Of a stretch of DNA of 51,183 nt, positions 32,642-40,644 are shown piece after piece (the first letter of the stretch is position 1; every line of letters starts with the position of its first letter). The translations under genes were made by a program, and so were the position numbers. Origin of the DNA: Neisseria sp. MVDL19-042950 (lineage in GTDB: Bacteria > Pseudomonadota > Gammaproteobacteria > Burkholderiales > Neisseriaceae); contig NZ_JAUKWH010000015.1 in assembly GCF_030504625.1 (NCBI RefSeq), forward strand, positions 1 through 51,183, in the 5' to 3' direction. The notes below the pieces were generated by a model. The model worked only from the letters and a program-made list of their open reading frames with translations. It had not been told where the DNA came from and did no database searches.

Positions 32642-32947
32642 ATGAAAAAATCCATTCTGATTCTGGTGGCGGCATTACCGGCGCTTGCGCTGGCGGATGT
32701 CGAGCTTTACGGCAACATCCGCAGCGGAGTGAGCGTGTCGCAGGTGAAAACGGATACCCAACGCTACACCCGCACGTCGGTTGATGATTTCGGCAGCTAC
32801 ATCGGCTTCAAAGGTTCGCATCCGATCGGTGGCGGCAATAATGTGATCTGGCAGTTTGAACAGGATATGCCGGTGGGTAAAAGCGGTTCTCTGCGGGAAT
32901 ATTTCCGTGAGAAAAAGAAAAACAGTGTGCTGCGGACGGGAGATTGA
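32642..32947 (+). pseudogene. Truncated neisserial porin remnant
   Basis: The 101-residue frame begins with a signal peptide (cleavage ALA-DV, after residue 18). It continues as a neisserial porin: DVELYGNIRSGV, FGSYIGFKGSHPIGGG, NNVIWQFEQD. The stretch that should read [21 protein letters not shown] in PorB-type porins is shortened to REYFREKKKNS, then VLRTGD and a stop. About two thirds of a normal porin (around 330 residues) is missing, so no beta barrel can form. A good ribosome-binding site (AGGGGA) remains. The remnant lies at the left border of the DUS-free accessory block. Confidence 0.82.
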
Positions 32948-33001: not shown

Positions 33002-33206
33002 GATCGTATTTGCGGGAAATCCTGTTAAGGGGGCGGAGGGTTACGGTATTAGACAGGTGGCATAGAAATATGCCGCTTACTTTTTTAAAATATTGTAAAA
33101 TAAAGATTATTATATTTTTTTGAACGTAAATTAATTTGTCAATCCGAAACTTTTGCCATGTAATTCCATCAGATTAATTCTAAAAAACAAATAGGGAGTA
33201 TTGCGC

Positions 33207-34064
33207 ATGAGAGATTATCACGCCAAACAGCAATACCGGCATGTCTATGATATGGGAAATGAATTTATACTCTTTCACAAGGAAGGAATACCGTCTAAAG
33301 GGTTGCGGAACCGGTTCCATCCTTATACCCGGCTGATTTTTTCGGGAAACAGCTCTTTGCCGGTAATGGTCGGCGGGGATAACGAATTTACTTTGCCGCC
33401 TAAAACCGTTTTGTTTTTATCACCTTATATGCTTTACAGCATCTTGCCCCGCCAAGAAAAAACCAACAGTTTATTGCTTAATCTCTGCTCTTTCGGTTTG
33501 AATGTTACCGCTTCTCCATTCTGGGAAAATGTCCGCGGACTTTTGGAAAGTGGGAAATCGGGTCTGCATTATCCTGAAGATAAATCCGATTTTATTTATC
33601 GGGTTTATAATGAAATTGAAAATGGGTTCGGCCTCAAAAATTTGTCTAAAATCATTGAGCTGTTGGATCATCTAACGACATACATGCCGCAAAACAGCAT
33701 TGTGGACAAACTGTGCAACATCCATCAAAACAATTTGCAGTTTTGCCAGACCGCTAACGAATACATTTATTCGCACTTGCATTGCAAAGGCATGGTCAGT
33801 GAAATAGCCAAGCAATCGCATATGTCGGTATCCAGCTTCCATCAGAAATTCCGCCAGCATTTCAAAGAGTCGTTTCATAGCTATTTGTTGAAACAAAAGA
33901 TTCATTTGGCTTGCAACCTGTTATCGACCACGTCGATGACGGTGGCCGAAATTGCGGAAGAGCTGAATTTCAATTCACCTTCCCACTTTACCGTTATTTT
34001 CAAGCAGCATCGGCAAACAACTCCGGGAGCCTACCGTACTCAGGCAATGCGGTTGAAAAACTGA
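33207..34064 (+). CDS. AraC-family transcriptional regulator
   Basis: The predicted 285-residue protein has an N-terminal cupin-like sensor half and a C-terminal AraC/XylS domain with two helix-turn-helix motifs: MVSEIAKQSHMSVSSFHQKFRQHF and MTVAEIAEELNFNSPSHFTVIFKQH, then TPGAYR. An AGGGAG site precedes the ATG at 33207. The 205 bases upstream are very AT-rich. The gene converges on the ProP-like transporter and is the only regulator near the creatininase/amidinotransferase cluster, so it is the likely controller; the effector is unknown. Confidence 0.9.
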   Translation: MRDYHAKQQYRHVYDMGNEFILFHKEGIPSKGLRNRFHPYTRLIFSGNSSLPVMVGGDNEFTLPPKTVLFLSPYMLYSILPRQEKTNSLLLNLCSFGLNVTASPFWENVRGLLESGKSGLHYPEDKSDFIYRVYNEIENGFGLKNLSKIIELLDHLTTYMPQNSIVDKLCNIHQNNLQFCQTANEYIYSHLHCKGMVSEIAKQSHMSVSSFHQKFRQHFKESFHSYLLKQKIHLACNLLSTTSMTVAEIAEELNFNSPSHFTVIFKQHRQTTPGAYRTQAMRLKN

Positions 34065-34087
34065 TTCGTTTGCGCATTTATGAAAAC

Positions 34088-34114
34088 AGGCGGCGGGCTT
34101 TTTGCCCGCCGCCT
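34088..34114. terminator. Bidirectional GC-rich terminator
   Basis: An 11-bp perfect stem (34088-34098 and 34104-34114) with a TTTTT loop lies between the convergent AraC and transporter genes. It is not DUS-based; its GCGGGC/GCCCGC arms resemble the ends of the elements at 27160 and 31648. Confidence 0.85.
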
Positions 34115-34149
34115 TGTTCACAGTTTGTTTGTCTTTATATCATTAAGGT

Positions 34150-35526
34150 TTATTCGGGTGTGTTAATCACCTTGCCGGTTTCTTCGTCTATTTCCACTTC
34201 CTCGCCCAATAATTCATCATTGGCGGTTTCTTTACTGAACATAATCGCTATAAGTGCGATAACCGCAATACCTGCCAAATACCATGCAGGCGCAAGTTGG
34301 TTGCCGGTTTCGTAAATCAATGTTGTGGCAACCAAAGGTGCCGTACCGCCGAGCAAGGCGTTACCGAGGTTGAAACACAAAGCAAAGCCGCTGAAGCGTA
34401 ATGACGTGGGGAAGATTTCGGTTAGGAAACCGGGCAAAGTACCGTCGTTCATGGCCAATATGGCACCAAACACCACCATAACCACCAAGGTTAAAATAAA
34501 ACTTCCCGTTTCTAACAACATAAACAGCGGTACGGATAACACGATGAAGGCAATACAGGCGCAAGTCAGCATGGTTTTCCGTCCGTAAAGGTCGGATAAA
34601 TGCCCCATCATGAAAATAAAACCGATATAAGTTAAGAGTGATACGCTGGAAGCAATAAACGAAGAAGTTTCGCTCATATGCAATTCGGTGCTCAAATAAG
34701 TGGGCATGTAGCTTAAAGTAGTATAAAAAGCAACGGCGTTCAAAGCTACGACACCGCAGGCGATGAAGATTTGGCGCCGGTAACCGATAACCAAACGGTA
34801 AATCGGCAAATGTCGTTGTTGGCGGTGTTCAAGGCGTTCTTCCATTTCACGGAACACCGGAGTGTCTTCAAGATGCAGGCGGATATACCGTCCGACCAAG
34901 CCGAAAGGTGCAGCCAGTAGAAACGGCAAACGCCAACCCCAGCTATGCAGTTGTTCATCACTTAAGATGGCATACAGTAAAGCAACCAGTAAAGAGCCGA
35001 GCAATAAGCCGCTGGCCGTGCTGGCGGGAACCAAACTGGTATAAAGCCCGCGTTGATGCGGCGGTGCGTATTCGGCAAGAAATGCCGCGGCTCCCGCATA
35101 TTCTCCGGATGCGGAGAAGCCTTGTACAAAACGGATTATCAGCAACAATAAGGGAGCAACGAATCCGACTTGTTCGTAAGTCGGCAGAAAAGCGATACAG
35201 AACGTTGCGGCCGACATGATTAAAATCGACCATGACAATGCCGCACGGCGTCCGTATCTGTCTCCCCATTGTCCCCACACGATACCGCCAATCGGGCGGA
35301 TGATAAATGAAATAGCAAAAACAGCATATGCGGCAATCAAACCGATTGTTTTATCTTCAGACGGGAAAAACACAACGGCAATAATGGCGGCAAGATATCC
35401 GTAGGCGGCATAATCGAACCATTCGACAAAATTACCGATAAAGCTCGAAACCGCCGCCTTGCGTAAAGCACTGCGCTCGCTTTCCGAGAGCTGTGCAGTA
35501 TGGTGGGAAGGGTTGATGGCAGACAT
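34150..35526 (-). CDS. MFS transporter, metabolite:H+ symporter (ProP-like)
   Basis: The 458-residue protein has 12 predicted helices and clear MHS-family motifs: GNFVEWFDYAAYGYLA in helix 1, IRPIGGIVWGQWGDRYGRR, QGFSASGEYAGAA and WGWRLPFLLA. It resembles ProP, the proline/glycine betaine:H+ importer, but lacks the ProP C-terminal coiled coil that senses osmotic strength. The acidic tail (GEEVEIDEETG) is different. Being next to creatininase, a betaine-like substrate such as creatine or creatinine is an attractive inference. A good promoter lies 127 bases upstream. Confidence 0.9.
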   Translation of the reverse strand: MSAINPSHHTAQLSESERSALRKAAVSSFIGNFVEWFDYAAYGYLAAIIAVVFFPSEDKTIGLIAAYAVFAISFIIRPIGGIVWGQWGDRYGRRAALSWSILIMSAATFCIAFLPTYEQVGFVAPLLLLIIRFVQGFSASGEYAGAAAFLAEYAPPHQRGLYTSLVPASTASGLLLGSLLVALLYAILSDEQLHSWGWRLPFLLAAPFGLVGRYIRLHLEDTPVFREMEERLEHRQQRHLPIYRLVIGYRRQIFIACGVVALNAVAFYTTLSYMPTYLSTELHMSETSSFIASSVSLLTYIGFIFMMGHLSDLYGRKTMLTCACIAFIVLSVPLFMLLETGSFILTLVVMVVFGAILAMNDGTLPGFLTEIFPTSLRFSGFALCFNLGNALLGGTAPLVATTLIYETGNQLAPAWYLAGIAVIALIAIMFSKETANDELLGEEVEIDEETGKVINTPE

Positions 35527-35652
35527 GATTTTCTCCTTGGTTTCGTTATTTCACATTCCGAACAGAAGGAAGTGCCGGTTGTTATGCACTTACCCATAGC
35601 AGTCAGTAATCAGAAAGCTACCAGGTATGAAAATTCCATCTACACGTTAAAT

Positions 35653-35681
35653 TTTATAAATAGTATGAACATACCGTGCAA
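35653..35681 (-). promoter_or_regulatory. Promoter of the ProP-like transporter
   Basis: On the minus strand TTGCAC (35676-35681), a 17-base spacer and TATAAA (35653-35658) form a good sigma-70 promoter. It implies a leader of about 120 bases before the start at 35526, so the transporter can be expressed apart from the genes upstream of it. Confidence 0.65.
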
Positions 35682-35706
35682 ACACATGGCAACCGGATTG
35701 AATCAA

Positions 35707-36678
35707 TCAGCCTACTTCCTTCGCTCTTGTCATTTCGGTTGCCTGAGCACCTTTGCGGGAGAAAAGGCTTACCAACACTTCGCTCATACCGCCGATAATA
35801 ATCAAGGCACCCCCGATTAATTGGGCGGGGCTCATGGCTTCGCCGTACACCATCCAACCGATGAAAACGGCGGCTACAACGCACTCCCAATACGATACGC
35901 ATGCGAACTCTACGGCTTTCAGATGGCGTGTGGCGATGGTACAGGTACCTAACGCGCCGAAACCGCATACGAAACCGATGCCGATCCACCACAACCAGTC
36001 AGTGCTTGTCATTTGGCTTACGGTTGGTTTTGTGAAAACAAACAGAGCCACGATACCGATTAAAGCGAAAATAAAATTCCAAAATGCACGGGTATCTCCG
36101 GGTACTTCGGTGCGGAACCGGTTAAAGAATAGAAACAGACCGTAACCAAGACCGGAATAAAGAGCCAACATGTCTCCTACGAAAGTTTCCGAAGAAAATT
36201 TCATATCAAATTGCAAGCCGTTTACGCTGTCATAACTTACCAGCCCGACGATCAACAGCATACCGGCAAATACAGCCGCCACCGATGCCCATGTAACCCA
36301 GCGCATTTTCTCTTTCAGGAAAATAACGGCCAGCAAAGTAGAAATGATTGGACCGATATAAATAAAGAATACGGCATTGGCAATCGAAGTAAGCTGGGTT
36401 GCCGCAACGTATGCCGACAAGCAGTTGCCCATAAAGAAACCGCTGGCAATCATGTGCCAAGAAAGTTTAAATGTTTTCAAATCTGATAACTTGCCTCTTG
36501 CTCCGATAATCATCAAAAACAAGATAGCGCCGAAAGCCATACGGGAGAGGGCGATAAAATCGCCTTGTGCATTAATGTGGCGTGCGAAAAAACCAACGAA
36601 GCCCATCAATGTGGCAGCGATAAAGGCATTCACAAAGCCGATTTTCTTGTTAATCGGTGAACTGACTTGTGTGCTCAT
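35707..36678 (-). CDS. EamA/DMT-family transporter, paralogue 1
   Basis: The 323-residue protein has about ten predicted transmembrane helices in two EamA repeats, as in drug/metabolite exporters (RhaT/YdcZ type). It shares segments with the second EamA protein at 37604-38596 (FAR.I.A.GDFIA, STLLAVIFLKE versus STVLASIFLKE, YGLFLFFNRFRTE versus YGLYLFVSRYRTD). It is downstream of creatininase on the same strand, separated by 119 bases with a GC hairpin. The substrate is unknown; an exporter of a guanidino or amino compound is a possibility. Confidence 0.88.
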   Translation of the reverse strand: MSTQVSSPINKKIGFVNAFIAATLMGFVGFFARHINAQGDFIALSRMAFGAILFLMIIGARGKLSDLKTFKLSWHMIASGFFMGNCLSAYVAATQLTSIANAVFFIYIGPIISTLLAVIFLKEKMRWVTWASVAAVFAGMLLIVGLVSYDSVNGLQFDMKFSSETFVGDMLALYSGLGYGLFLFFNRFRTEVPGDTRAFWNFIFALIGIVALFVFTKPTVSQMTSTDWLWWIGIGFVCGFGALGTCTIATRHLKAVEFACVSYWECVVAAVFIGWMVYGEAMSPAQLIGGALIIIGGMSEVLVSLFSRKGAQATEMTRAKEVG

Positions 36679-36768
36679 GGTTGCTTCTCCAAAGATTGAA
36701 AATATAAGGGGGAAATCTTTACTGTCCCATTTTGGATTTATGCTCTTATTCCTATAAATAACCCGGGC

Positions 36769-36788
36769 AGGGCGGAATAACCCGCCCT
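36769..36788. terminator. Small GC hairpin after creatininase
   Basis: AGGGCGG and CCGCCCT flank a short AT loop between the creatininase stop (36798, minus) and the downstream transporter gene. It may attenuate read-through. It shares the GGGCGG/CCGCCC arms of the other non-DUS elements. Confidence 0.55.
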
Positions 36789-36797
36789 ACTATCAGG

Positions 36798-37571
36798 TCA
36801 AGCGCCCAAGCCGAACTCGGTGCGGATAGCCTCAGCCATTTTTGATGAAGCAGTTTCCAGCAAAATTCGGCCTTTTTCTTTCGTGGCGTTTGCTGCTGAA
36901 GACAGGCAGCCGGAAGGAGGGGTCAGCTCCGGTTTTATAGGCAGAATATCGTAGTTCGGCAATTGCGCTGGCGGGCCGTCCATTACCGCATCCATATCTA
37001 CCATTTCAGGGTGCAGCAAAAGCATCAGTGAAGTTTCTAAAACGCCGCCGTGTTCCAAGTCCCAGCCGGTAAAGCCTTCCGGATACAGGCGTGCAATCGT
37101 GGCATCGTCTACAAAATCCCAATACGACATCAACAAGGCTTTTATTTCGATACCGTCGCGTTTGAGTTCGCGGATTGCCGTATCGACACCTTCAAACAGA
37201 AACTGGTAGTTCTCGTAATGCCCATTGCAGAAAACGAATCTGCGCACACCGTGGGCGGCTAATTCCAATGTAATTTCACGAGCAAGGGCAATGAACGTCG
37301 CACCGCTCAGAGAAGTCGTACCGGCCAAATGGTAACCGCCGCCCGAGCGTTGTTGGGATTTATAACCGAAAGAAAGGGCAGGGCCGACAAGTCCACCGAT
37401 ACGCTCTGCCACGGCTGTTGCCACATCGGTGGATAAAAGTTCGTCTACATTCATCGGCATATGCGGGCCGTGCTGCTCAAGCGCACCTACGGGAACAACG
37501 ACAACGGGGTTTTCTTTCACACGGTCTCGATATTCAAAAGCATTCATCTGCTTCATATTGATGTTAGCCAT
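36798..37571 (-). CDS. Creatininase (creatinine amidohydrolase)
   Basis: The 257-residue enzyme is expected to interconvert creatinine and creatine by ring opening. It matches Pseudomonas putida creatininase along its whole length. The metal ligands and active-site residues are present: Glu32, His34, Asp43, His118 and Glu120 (GALEQHG, NVDELL, NGHYEN), with Trp151, Trp170 and His174 lining the substrate site (SYWDFV, GWDLEHGG). The loop KSQQRSGGG is also conserved. These last residues set true creatininases apart from the wider superfamily (for example the mycofactocin or riboflavin-pathway members). It lies 32 bases after an EamA transporter, and GAGGTAAC precedes its ATG. No creatinase is in the window. 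Confidence 0.92.
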   Translation of the reverse strand: MANINMKQMNAFEYRDRVKENPVVVVPVGALEQHGPHMPMNVDELLSTDVATAVAERIGGLVGPALSFGYKSQQRSGGGYHLAGTTSLSGATFIALAREITLELAAHGVRRFVFCNGHYENYQFLFEGVDTAIRELKRDGIEIKALLMSYWDFVDDATIARLYPEGFTGWDLEHGGVLETSLMLLLHPEMVDMDAVMDGPPAQLPNYDILPIKPELTPPSGCLSSAANATKEKGRILLETASSKMAEAIRTEFGLGA

Positions 37572-37603
37572 AATGTTACCTCTTCAATATCTTCGTTAAC
37601 CCA

Positions 37604-38596
37604 TTATTTTGCGGGGGGTATAGGTGTTGGAGTTCCAAGAGGCTTCGAACCTCTGGTAGATAGGTAAACCTGTGATAATCCTCCTCCGACGATCAAGATA
37701 CCGCCAAGATACTGCATCATAGTCAAATGCTCAGAGAAAAGTACCATTCCGAGTATTGAAGCCATGATGGTTTCCTGATATGAAATGGTTGCCAGCTCTC
37801 CCGCCAATAGAATTCTGGAAGCCACCGTCAAGAAATAGAATGCTCCGAATCCTGTAACCAGTGCGGCAACAATCAGTACAACCCAAGAATCCATCGGCAT
37901 TGTTGCAATGTCCCACGGAATTGAAATGCTTCGACCCTCTGCGTCTTTAACCGCGTATTCCAAATTGTCCCAACGGAAAACAAGCATCAGACCTATGGTC
38001 ATCACGGCAAATAGGAAATTGTAGAAAGACCTTACATTGGAATTGAAATCGGTGCGGTAACGGGATACAAAAAGATAGAGTCCGTAAGCAACCCCCGAAA
38101 GGAGCGCAATCATATTGCCCGTAGTGTATTTGGGATCAAGATCCAGTCCGAAACCTTTTTCGGAAACGATTCCGACAATTAAAAGCGTGCCGAGAATTAC
38201 CGCCGACAGCGAACCCAGCATGGGAATTTTAAATGGTTCTTTCAGGAAAATAGATGCCAATACGGTTGAATAAATCGGACCGGTATAGATGAGGAACGAA
38301 GCATTGGCAAGCGTAGTGTACTGCGTTGAAATAACATAAAGCGAAGACAGCAGGCCGAGAAAAATACCTGAAAACAAGATAGCCGGCGAAAATTTTTGCG
38401 CCTTTACGGTTTTAAATCCACCAACACATAGGAAAATCAATGTCATTCCGATGAGGCCGGCAAAGCTCCTACAGAATGCAATGAAGTCTCCCGGAGCGCT
38501 GATGTAGCGGGCAAATGCTCCAATACCCCCCATCAGCGACGAAGACAGAAACATGAAGCCGAAACCTTTTAGCTTCGTTAATGACTCTTGGTTCAT
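37604..38596 (-). CDS. EamA/DMT-family transporter, paralogue 2
   Basis: The predicted 330-residue membrane protein has two five-helix EamA repeats and is paralogous to the protein at 35707-36678. The start at 38596 was chosen for its AAGGAG site; an upstream in-frame start at 38617 has none. The C-terminal tail is Pro/Thr-rich (GTPTPIPPAK). It is 32 bases upstream of creatininase on the same strand, so both are very likely in one operon. The substrate is unknown. Confidence 0.88.
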   Translation of the reverse strand: MNQESLTKLKGFGFMFLSSSLMGGIGAFARYISAPGDFIAFCRSFAGLIGMTLIFLCVGGFKTVKAQKFSPAILFSGIFLGLLSSLYVISTQYTTLANASFLIYTGPIYSTVLASIFLKEPFKIPMLGSLSAVILGTLLIVGIVSEKGFGLDLDPKYTTGNMIALLSGVAYGLYLFVSRYRTDFNSNVRSFYNFLFAVMTIGLMLVFRWDNLEYAVKDAEGRSISIPWDIATMPMDSWVVLIVAALVTGFGAFYFLTVASRILLAGELATISYQETIMASILGMVLFSEHLTMMQYLGGILIVGGGLSQVYLSTRGSKPLGTPTPIPPAK

Positions 38597-38931
38597 CTCA
38601 CACTCCTTTTTCAACATCCTTTACGATGAATGGAATGAGCCTTTCCCGAAATGTGTTAAATGTGAGGATTAAATTTAAACAACGTAAAATAAAAATTGAT
38701 CATGCAATATTTCTATATGTATACGGCTTATACTTCCTGCAAACAGCATGAAGTTTCACTCTTCCCGTTTTCCCTTTCATTACGAACAAGTTATGGAACC
38801 ACAAAGAACTTCTTCTGTTGTAAATCCCTTCCGCTTTTCATGATATTTGCCTGAAGATTGAAAAAACGGCAGCGGTTATGGATTTAGGAAAATCACGCCG
38901 CCGCCGTTTGCAGTTTTATCGATTTACAGCC
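38597..38931. other. AT-rich intergenic region between EamA transporter and amidinotransferase
   Basis: No gene or DUS lies in these 335 bases. The part nearest the transporter start is strongly AT-rich and probably holds its promoter on the minus strand (TTGCAT and TATACA-like boxes, but with poor spacing). A plus-strand open frame at 38878 is antisense to the end of the amidinotransferase and not credible. Confidence 0.5.
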
Positions 38932-40062
38932 TTAAACAAGCGTCAAATCGTCAAAGTTCCGGTTCGGGAAGTAGTCCTCGCAGCCGCCTTCGCGATATAC
39001 GTCTGCAGTAGCACAATGCAGCGCACCGCCAAACGGATAAGCGTCGCGGAACGGAACAGGAATTACGTTCATGCCTAATTTATCCATTTGTTCTTGTTGA
39101 TGCACTTCGGATGCTTCCACAATCACTGTTTTGTGATCCAGAACCAGACAGTTCATAGACAGCCATACAGAGCTATAGCACAGTGGAGGCGGTTCGGTGT
39201 GAGCCGGTTGTGCGGCTTCCACGATTTGCCAATCGTTTTTCTCGAAGATGGCGCGTTGCTCTTTCGGCAGCGGACGTACGGGGTTGTTGATGATCAAGCC
39301 CGGACGCAGTGGTACGAAAGTAGCGTCAATGTGGATCGGGTACGGGTCGCCCGGGAAGTTCACGGCATGAATGGTCAATTCGGGATAGTAGCGTTTGAAC
39401 CATTCCATCGCAGTGCGGTTGGTGGTCAAACCGTGTTGGATGAACAAGTCTTTACCCAAACGCATAACGTCGGCGGCATCCCACATTGGTTCTTCTTCGG
39501 TGGTTACGAAGTCTTTGTTGGCGGTACGGATCAAGCGCTCTTCCAAAGAGATTTGCTCGTCGTAGTAGTTATGTTTGTAAGACTTGTCGGTCAAGCGCGG
39601 ACGGGGTGCTTGGGTCCATTTGAATTCCGGGTCTTCTTCGAAATATTTTTTCATCAGCGGCCAGTAGGCAAGATATTCGAAGTAACGGCAACGGAAAGAG
39701 TTGGCTGATGCCATGATTTCGTTACCGATGGTTAACAGAATATCCCGCGGCGGCATACAGGTCATCATCGAACCGGTGCGGAAATCGGGGGTGATTACCG
39801 GTTGGTTCCATTGTAGTGGAGTAGGACGGTCAACGATTACACCGCGCTCTTCCAGCACTTTGGTCAAGTAATTCAATTGATCATTGGCTTTTTCTACGGT
39901 TTCCAACGGACGTGGACCCCACATGCCGCGCATTTTGCTGTCGACGGGCACTTTTTCAGAAGTAGCCGGTTCTTCGGGAGGAATACAACTATGGTCGGCA
40001 ACACCGACAATTACCCGTTTCAGCGGATCAAAGTCATTCCAAGAATTTACGATTTTTGCCAT
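38932..40062 (-). CDS. Arginine:glycine amidinotransferase-like enzyme
   Basis: The 376-residue protein resembles vertebrate AGAT (GATM) and bacterial amidinotransferases over its full length. Shared motifs are WNDFDPLKRVIVG, CIPP near the N-terminus, MPPRDILLTIGNEI (Asp107), EPMWDAADVMRLGKD (Asp195/Asp198), YPIHIDATF (His244, Asp246) and GGALHCATADV with the catalytic Cys350. The family moves the amidino group of arginine to an amine (glycine, giving guanidinoacetate and ornithine) through a covalent Cys-amidino intermediate. The acceptor here cannot be read from sequence. AAGGAGAT precedes the ATG. It is divergent from oppA and heads the minus-strand cluster containing creatininase. Confidence 0.9.
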   Translation of the reverse strand: MAKIVNSWNDFDPLKRVIVGVADHSCIPPEEPATSEKVPVDSKMRGMWGPRPLETVEKANDQLNYLTKVLEERGVIVDRPTPLQWNQPVITPDFRTGSMMTCMPPRDILLTIGNEIMASANSFRCRYFEYLAYWPLMKKYFEEDPEFKWTQAPRPRLTDKSYKHNYYDEQISLEERLIRTANKDFVTTEEEPMWDAADVMRLGKDLFIQHGLTTNRTAMEWFKRYYPELTIHAVNFPGDPYPIHIDATFVPLRPGLIINNPVRPLPKEQRAIFEKNDWQIVEAAQPAHTEPPPLCYSSVWLSMNCLVLDHKTVIVEASEVHQQEQMDKLGMNVIPVPFRDAYPFGGALHCATADVYREGGCEDYFPNRNFDDLTLV

Positions 40063-40644
40063 GATTCATCTCCTTAAAAATTTACGGAAAACTAAAACAA
40101 CGCTTTCATCGCTTTTCACAAATCCCAATCAGCCGAACACATATGCATAATTATAAATACATAAAACAATACTACTTTTGATTAGGATTTTCATGAGGCT
40201 TATTCTAACGGTTGCTCCTTTTTTTAAAATATAGAAAAGAATAGCAACACTATCAAAAAAGACCAAATCTCATTTATTTCATAAAGTTATATTCCTACAT
40301 GGCATTGCGGAAATTGATTGAAATCAATGAAAGGCTTTTAAAGGCTTGATAACCGACCGAATGCTTTTCACATATCCTGCAAGATGAAATCCGGTACCAT
40401 CCAGCTGGTACGGAGAACTGCCGAACCAATTTCGCCTGCAATATTTTTTGGTTGCAGTTCGCATTTTTCGTGCTGCCATAAAATTACTTGACAGAAGCGT
40501 AGAATCTTTTAAAAAATAGACCGTCATTGCATTTGTTTACATAATTGCAATACAAAAACTTTAGTTTTGAAGAATATTAACGATAGCCGGGCCGATTTGA
40601 AATATTGAAACAGCCAAGGTTCCGGTCAAGGAGATGGATCAACT
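40063..40644. other. 582-base divergent regulatory region, amidinotransferase/oppA
   Basis: This AT-rich gap lies between two divergent genes and has no DUS. On the minus strand a TATAAT sits near 40153 upstream of the amidinotransferase, without an obvious -35 box. A short imperfect inverted repeat (CCGGTACCA and TGGTACGG) is near 40391-40413. A 67-codon minus-strand frame (40324-40527) is basic, has no recognised family and no good ribosome-binding site. oppA has GGAG about 10 bases before its ATG. Confidence 0.5.

Follow-up and report, generated by a model that had tools for sequence, protein, structure and literature searches.

Bacterial breakdown of creatinine, a standard marker of kidney function, and of creatine, a widely taken supplement, has so far been known to proceed via creatinase or via hydantoin chemistry, and the creatininase-creatinase-sarcosine oxidase pathway is known from Pseudomonas and Arthrobacter. 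We analyzed a 51,183-nucleotide stretch of Neisseria sp. MVDL19-042950 (assembly GCF_030504625.1, contig NZ_JAUKWH010000015.1, positions 1 to 51,183; hereafter the window), which carries a minus-strand operon for an amidinotransferase related to L-arginine:glycine amidinotransferase (AGAT), a creatininase and three transporters. When compared with related loci, the operon was read as probably serving creatinine and creatine catabolism that feeds the arginine deiminase (ADI) pathway, with creatine as the predicted amidino donor of AGAT. The features are as follows.

38932..40062, minus strand: AGAT-type amidinotransferase of 376 amino acids (275 bits to human AGAT)
37604..38617, minus strand: EamA/DMT transporter 1 (EamA1), partner of the creatininase (PF00892)
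36798..37571, minus strand: creatininase (creatinine amidohydrolase; TIGR04448, 339.6 bits; 301 bits to 1j2t)
35707..36678, minus strand: EamA/DMT transporter 2 (EamA2; PF00892)
34150..35526, minus strand: metabolite:H+ symporter of the major facilitator superfamily (MFS), ProP-like subfamily (TIGR00883, 391 bits, under the cut-off of 443)
33207..34064, plus strand: AraC-family regulator, convergent with the operon (PF12833/PF00165)
33065..40643, no strand: foreign island, lacking the DNA-uptake sequence and lower in G+C

All five minus-strand open reading frames (ORFs) and the plus-strand AraC ORF were intact, and the gene set and order of the original prediction (AGAT, EamA, creatininase, EamA, ProP-like symporter, convergent AraC) were found in place at agreeing coordinates. 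The genome scan used patterns made from the window AGAT alone, so that only close relatives were found. At least 79 AGAT loci were obtained outside the genus, mainly in Actinomycetaceae and Eggerthellaceae and also in Crenobacter, Craterilacuibacter and Photobacterium; two of the 79 were set aside as AGAT fragments only, and 77 were counted. When neighbouring genes were clustered and searched with named proteins, the fullest gene order was arcA-arcB-arcC-AGAT-EamA-(creatininase)-(BCCT)-(symporter)-(TetR). The linkage of these genes exceeds chance and recurs across phyla.

Most of the actinobacterial AGAT loci found adjoin ADI genes. At least one arc gene was present in the fetched flanks of 48 of the 77 loci (all three in 37, two in 5, one in 6), an EamA match in 66 (many of the EamA2 matches behind this count being only 31-49 % identical) and a ProP/BCCT/SSS-type match in 69. 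NCBIfam confirmed the arc families on representative loci; ArcA of locus L003, for instance, scored 466.6 on TIGR01078 (under the cut-off of 489.1) and 497 on NF002381 (over the cut-off of 414). ArcA was also found in 34 of 35 AGAT genomes picked mostly for having no complete adjacent arc set, 17 of the 35 exceeding the TIGR01078 cut-off and some matches being partial or split; the exception is a Slackia metagenome-assembled genome. A set of 213 genomes, the family of the Actinobaculum massiliense genome G101, yielded 74 AGAT matches at E 0.001, of which G182 (E 2.9e-6, with a stop) was dropped, and 145 ArcA matches, of which G105, G187 and G290 were dropped as too weak. ArcA was thereby counted in 72 of 73 genomes with AGAT and in 70 of 140 without it (Fisher 2e-15), these and the other counts and Fisher values being uncorrected for relatedness among the genomes; only 6 of the 213 pass the TIGR01078 cut-off. 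The sole exception with AGAT is G187, in which arcB-arcC-AGAT reaches the contig end just past arcB.

The window genome itself encodes an arcDABC cluster on contig C10, separate from the AGAT contig, and each of its four genes exceeds its NCBIfam equivalog cut-off (ArcA 531 bits against 489, ornithine carbamoyltransferase 443 against 281, ArcC 426 against 358). The original prediction had the amidino group passed to ornithine, a direction that is favoured here, and overlooked arcABC, the energy step that lies in the same genome on another contig.

Creatininase is the second linked partner. It was found over the TIGR04448 cut-off in 27 of the 213 family genomes, and 24 of these 27 also carry AGAT (Fisher 5e-10), with both genes within 3 kb on one strand in 23 genomes and on different contigs in the 24th. 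On the 5' side of creatininase, the closest named gene is EamA1 in 16 of the 17 loci that carry a creatininase. Among 46 genomes of the window's genus, AGAT occurs in two (the window genome G000, and G061), ArcA in the same two, and creatininase (PF02633) in these and in G016. Conservation of the two enzymes together, suggested for checking in the original prediction, therefore holds well in the A. massiliense family and is thin in the genus (2/46).

Creatinase takes the place of AGAT in other creatininase loci. In two of the three family genomes with creatininase and without AGAT, creatinase adjoins creatininase, together with sarcosine oxidase genes in G201 and in the order creatininase-BCCT-creatinase-symporter in G202; a fourth genome, G206, combines the two versions, with AGAT beside creatininase at one locus and the order creatininase-BCCT-creatinase-sarcosine oxidase at another. 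The creatininases at these loci, and that of G194 (see below), pass TIGR04448. Comparable loci are present in two AGAT-free members of the window's own genus. G016 carries a creatininase (35 % identity to that of the window, 312.7 bits on TIGR04448), a creatinase (675 bits to 1chm), a BCCT carrier and a symporter from the subfamily seen in the window (61 %), and G013 carries a creatinase and a symporter (62 %) without creatininase. A creatinase query matched all 46 genus genomes at E 0.001 and was strong only in these two (945 bits in G016 and 713 in G013); in the other 44, G000 and G061 among them, E-values were 1.9e-7 or weaker, and the window genome gave weak matches only (best E 1.2e-4).

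The symporter follows the same pattern. When 60 of 299 plasmid records, spread across the ranking, were compared, relatives of the window symporter fell into two tiers of 53-67 % and 36-42 % identity; genes annotated proP belong to the lower tier (37-40 %), and relatives at 53-67 % accompany creatinase wherever examined. Eight plasmid regions were fetched, six of them for the symporter, and creatinase was adjacent in four, 1.8 kb off in L122 and 7.9 kb off in Azoarcus. The adjoining creatinases share 63-79 % identity with that of G016. Many plasmid records are near-identical Acinetobacter plasmids, so the independent cases are few. Creatininase is thus mostly accompanied by either creatinase or AGAT, with carriers of the same kind, and this exchange of enzymes behind constant carriers argues that AGAT would act on creatine. 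Arthrobacter sarcosine oxidase subunits had no match in 94 loci, including the creatinase locus L094 of G016, a search that covered loci and not whole genomes; this fits with excretion of sarcosine.

Although the window AGAT was not recognised by any Pfam or NCBIfam model at E 0.001, human AGAT (1jdx) was the top of seven matched PDB sequences (275 bits), ahead of the natural-product amidinotransferases HsvA (198), SxtG (197) and StrB1 (156 bits). The human catalytic residues D254, H303 and C407 correspond to D195, H244 and C350 and are kept in all 82 aligned AGATs, the window protein included. The same holds for D170, D305 and S355, and R322 and S354 are kept in 81 of 82, the lone protein without them being presumably that of the distant locus L082; we take these five to be the arginine/ornithine-binding residues of human AGAT. 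Human N300 and M302 are replaced by Y241 and I243. At position 300 the 82 proteins have Y (73), H (8) or Q (1), and at position 302 I (81) or M (1); the window enzyme pairs Y with I, and Photobacterium enzymes pair H with I. The equivalents in CyrA and AoaA are F and S and have been tied to the narrow specificity of CyrA, according to PMC3684758. The replacements show a predicted pocket that is altered; they do not tell its substrate.

The window creatininase scores 339.6 bits on TIGR04448, well over the cut-off (235). When aligned to creatinine amidohydrolase 1j2t, it keeps the EQH, D and HYE motifs and both tryptophan motifs, which we take to be the residues that bind metal and substrate in the Pseudomonas enzyme. 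This agrees with the earlier claim of a complete catalytic set, and the protein is predicted to hydrolyse creatinine. For the symporter, the score on the ProP equivalog NF007927 (365.6 bits) lies under the cut-off of 544, as do those of the relatives that accompany creatinase in L094 and L127 (351.8 and 374.8). The label ProP-like is therefore retained as a family resemblance and dropped as an assignment. The closest relatives of EamA2 (70-74 %) are in AGAT loci of Crenobacter, Craterilacuibacter and Photobacterium aquae, and the other matches at 31-49 % may be related at family level only.

On these grounds the AGAT-type gene product is proposed to be a creatine (or guanidinoacetate):ornithine amidinotransferase. 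Creatine would be imported by the ProP-like symporter (elsewhere also by a BCCT carrier), creatinine might enter through EamA1 or the symporter, and creatininase, by its family assignment, would convert creatinine to creatine. The AGAT cysteine would then take the amidino group of creatine, freeing sarcosine, and hand it to ornithine to give arginine. AGAT reactions are reversible, and the enzyme would here run opposite to the animal direction (creatine + ornithine to sarcosine + arginine). By the established ADI pathway, whose genes are present, ArcA, ArcB and ArcC would yield ammonia, CO2, ATP and ornithine from arginine; because ornithine is given back, it would be catalytic. Removal of arginine and return of ornithine by the ADI pathway would pull the amidino transfer forward. 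In what is the weakest step, an EamA carrier might export sarcosine, perhaps in exchange for substrate. The net yield from creatine would be sarcosine, 2 NH3, CO2 and 1 ATP, with no creatinase, urea or urease. It is somewhat probable that this amounts to a third bacterial creatine route, a urea-free "creatine fermentation" by reversed AGAT and the ADI pathway with one ATP per creatine. It would be common to host-associated Actinomycetota, whose genera with AGAT loci we take to be oral, urinary and gut inhabitants, to Neisseria, and to Photobacterium (without creatininase in the loci seen).

Published expression data bear on the same genes. According to PMC6314084, ArcA, ArcB, ArcC and AGAT of A. 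massiliense (loci 01647-01650) were more than 8-fold up in urinary-catheter biofilm compared with rich medium, and AGAT, with 0.0196 of spectra, ranked fifth among the selected proteins tabulated; the authors regarded urine and biofilm effects as inseparable and placed the four proteins in polyketide synthesis. A polyketide role was rejected here, as AGAT sits with arcABC in strain FC3 (L036: arcABC-AGAT-EamA2-symporter) and the cited polyketide synthase lies elsewhere (locus 01364) and was induced less than 2-fold in the same source. The A. massiliense genome G101 had no TIGR04448 match, so that in this species imported creatine or guanidinoacetate would itself be the substrate. No AGAT-ADI creatine route was found among the listed titles and abstract beginnings of the open-access literature, preprints and most subscription papers lying outside that scope, and a term search of PMC5300872, a survey of ADI gene clusters in 1281 species, gave 0 occurrences of amidinotransferase.

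Several observations weigh against the proposed creatine route. Of the 77 AGAT loci, 19 lack arc genes although each of their flanks extends for 5 kb or more (another 10 without an arc gene have a short flank), and in Photobacterium arc genes adjoin only 1 of 8 AGAT loci, yet ArcA is present in 8 of 8 genomes. The ADI operon of the window genome includes a dedicated arginine/ornithine antiporter, which would make the operon independent of AGAT. The near-sister genomes G000 and G061 share AGAT genes of 95.4 % identity, so the co-occurrence of AGAT and ArcA in the genus counts as one event. G194, the third family genome with creatininase and without AGAT, has a creatininase (38 % to that of the window) and a symporter (49 %), and the 17 kb fetched there contain no AGAT and no creatinase gene. 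In Acinetobacter and G013, Pfam-confirmed EamA genes are found close to creatinase as well, and EamA was not upheld as a marker of the AGAT route for this reason.

Other points concern the amidino donor, for which guanidinoacetate is the main rival to creatine. The scheme would be the same, with AGAT acting on guanidinoacetate (freeing glycine) or another guanidino acid and creatininase opening glycocyamidine or serving a side route. Guanidinoacetate is a known reverse substrate of AGAT, and we know of no animal AGAT that uses creatine. No alignment column among the 82 proteins separates creatininase-linked from other AGATs; a split of AGAT by creatininase linkage was rejected, and with the signature identical in both groups, guanidinoacetate may be the substrate at the many AGAT loci that have no creatininase. 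In three Actinomycetaceae loci (L030 4163-6354, L042 3888-6235, L043 3887-6234; Pfam on L042), arcA is immediately preceded by serine hydroxymethyltransferase and FolD genes on its 5' side, which would suit released glycine and might equally be plain synteny. However, the transporters and creatininase match those of creatinase loci, where the substrate is creatine, and both human specificity positions, N300 and M302, are changed. We consider guanidinoacetate a rather unlikely donor.

A reversed operon, in which AGAT would build a guanidino compound from arginine for export by EamA, with creatininase cyclising or trimming it, had been called equally open in the original prediction. Animal AGAT works in this direction, and EamA/DMT proteins are often exporters. 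However, no methyltransferase was recognised among the recurrent neighbour clusters read (by non-exhaustive annotation), and APA-type ArcD, the only ArcD type searched for, occurs in 2 of 77 AGAT loci, which places arginine import outside the usual module, whereas the symporter and BCCT carriers of creatinase loci belong to it. The operon proteins were also up in the urine-exposed biofilm reported in PMC6314084. The ADI linkage and the transporters common to creatinase loci favour the catabolic direction, and the reverse now appears very improbable. Scavenging of creatine nitrogen or of arginine alone, with the arginine formed going to biosynthesis and an incidental ADI link in Neisseria, has a similarly slim chance; AGAT and arc are unlinked in the window genome and arc has its own antiporter, but AGAT and ArcA share the same 2 of 46 genus genomes and often form one gene cluster elsewhere. 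The creatine route is thus preferred, and the import of creatinine or creatine, ring opening and amidino transfer to ornithine without creatinase or urea, as originally suggested, would be the reading that comparison of gene content favours.

Some loci showed additional genes. Paired AGAT copies lie a few kb apart in L011, L021, L022, L025, L026 and L052, each copy often accompanied by a separate carrier. Past the AGAT operon, downstream of TetR, L007, L008 (also with a second arcA), L030 and L049 carry a second ornithine carbamoyltransferase gene; an amino-acid-kinase-family gene (cluster c18) adjoins it, and the two may concern ornithine supply. Between the EamA gene and the symporter of Eggerthellaceae loci, a protein of about 190 amino acids without a Pfam match was found (cluster c17, 9 loci; L019 12585-13154, L024 12565-13134), and in L080 it precedes creatininase. 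In Cutibacterium namnetense (G075, contig C1 45394-46607), the ArcA match consists of two overlapping pieces; AGAT is intact and arcA may be broken.

The operon lies in a foreign island that holds none of the window's 63 GCCGTCTGAA DNA-uptake cores (9.3 expected; Poisson 9e-5) and has a G+C of 0.454 compared with 0.513. The uptake sequences of the window agree with its assignment to Neisseria. Phylogenetic trees (FastTree) were mosaic. AGAT, EamA1 and creatininase grouped with Actinomycetota, with weak nodes for EamA1 (0.52) and creatininase (0.78) with L034, and EamA2 and the symporter grouped with Crenobacter, Craterilacuibacter and Photobacterium aquae. AGAT protein identity outside the genus reaches 90 % among the matches listed, and DNA identity of the best-scoring match outside the genus is 79 % (among the best 12). 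Direct recent transfer from high-G+C Actinomycetota was rejected on the DNA identity and the mosaic operon, which together indicate an old or indirect transfer.

The first ATG of the AraC gene is at 33207, the listed ORF beginning at a TTG at 33201, and AraC-type genes are also present in Crenobacter and Photobacterium AGAT loci. A plus-strand ORF of 101 amino acids (32642-32947) adjoins the island; its match to Gram-negative porin models is confined to their beginning (Porin_4, 36.5 bits, model positions 4-76 of 310) and may be a remnant. The creatine loci of G016 (L094 742-8700) and of the window (33207-40062) differ and share an opp/nitrilase neighbourhood, which suggests replacement or a common hot spot in two lineages of the genus.

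If the creatine route is true, host-associated Actinomyces, Actinobaculum, Gordonibacter and Neisseria relatives would gain ATP and ammonia from a waste product of the host, and the gene set with AGAT could reveal creatine loss in metagenomes. So far AGAT has been labelled as creatine synthesis or polyketide synthesis (PMC6314084).

Compared with known systems, the AGAT operon resembles the creatininase-creatinase-sarcosine oxidase pathway (here G016, G201, G202, G206 and the plasmids) in its creatininase, its symporter subfamily and/or BCCT carrier, and in the proposed creatine intermediate and sarcosine product, whereas AGAT and arcABC stand in place of the urea-releasing creatinase. PMC8864220 describes a similar arrangement in Corynebacterium glutamicum, CreT-CrnA, where an MFS creatine transporter shares an operon with creatininase; genes of the C. 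glutamicum N-methylhydantoin/N-carbamoylsarcosine route were not recognised here, no dedicated search having been made. With human AGAT (1jdx) the window protein shares the fold family, the catalytic triad and the arginine/ornithine-binding residues, and it differs by the N300/M302 to Y/I replacements and by its catabolic gene context. CyrA/AoaA, SxtG, StrB1 and HsvA belong to the same amidinotransferase family, but the genes that recur around AGAT are of the arc and transporter kinds and do not belong to natural-product pathways. Like the arcDABC type of ADI pathway, AGAT loci have arcABC genes and would gain ATP via carbamoyl phosphate; unlike it, they carry EamA and ProP/BCCT carriers, nearly always lack APA-type ArcD (2/77), and would recycle ornithine internally. 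The enzyme families are all known, and it is their combination as a proposed creatine route that was not found among the listed open-access papers.

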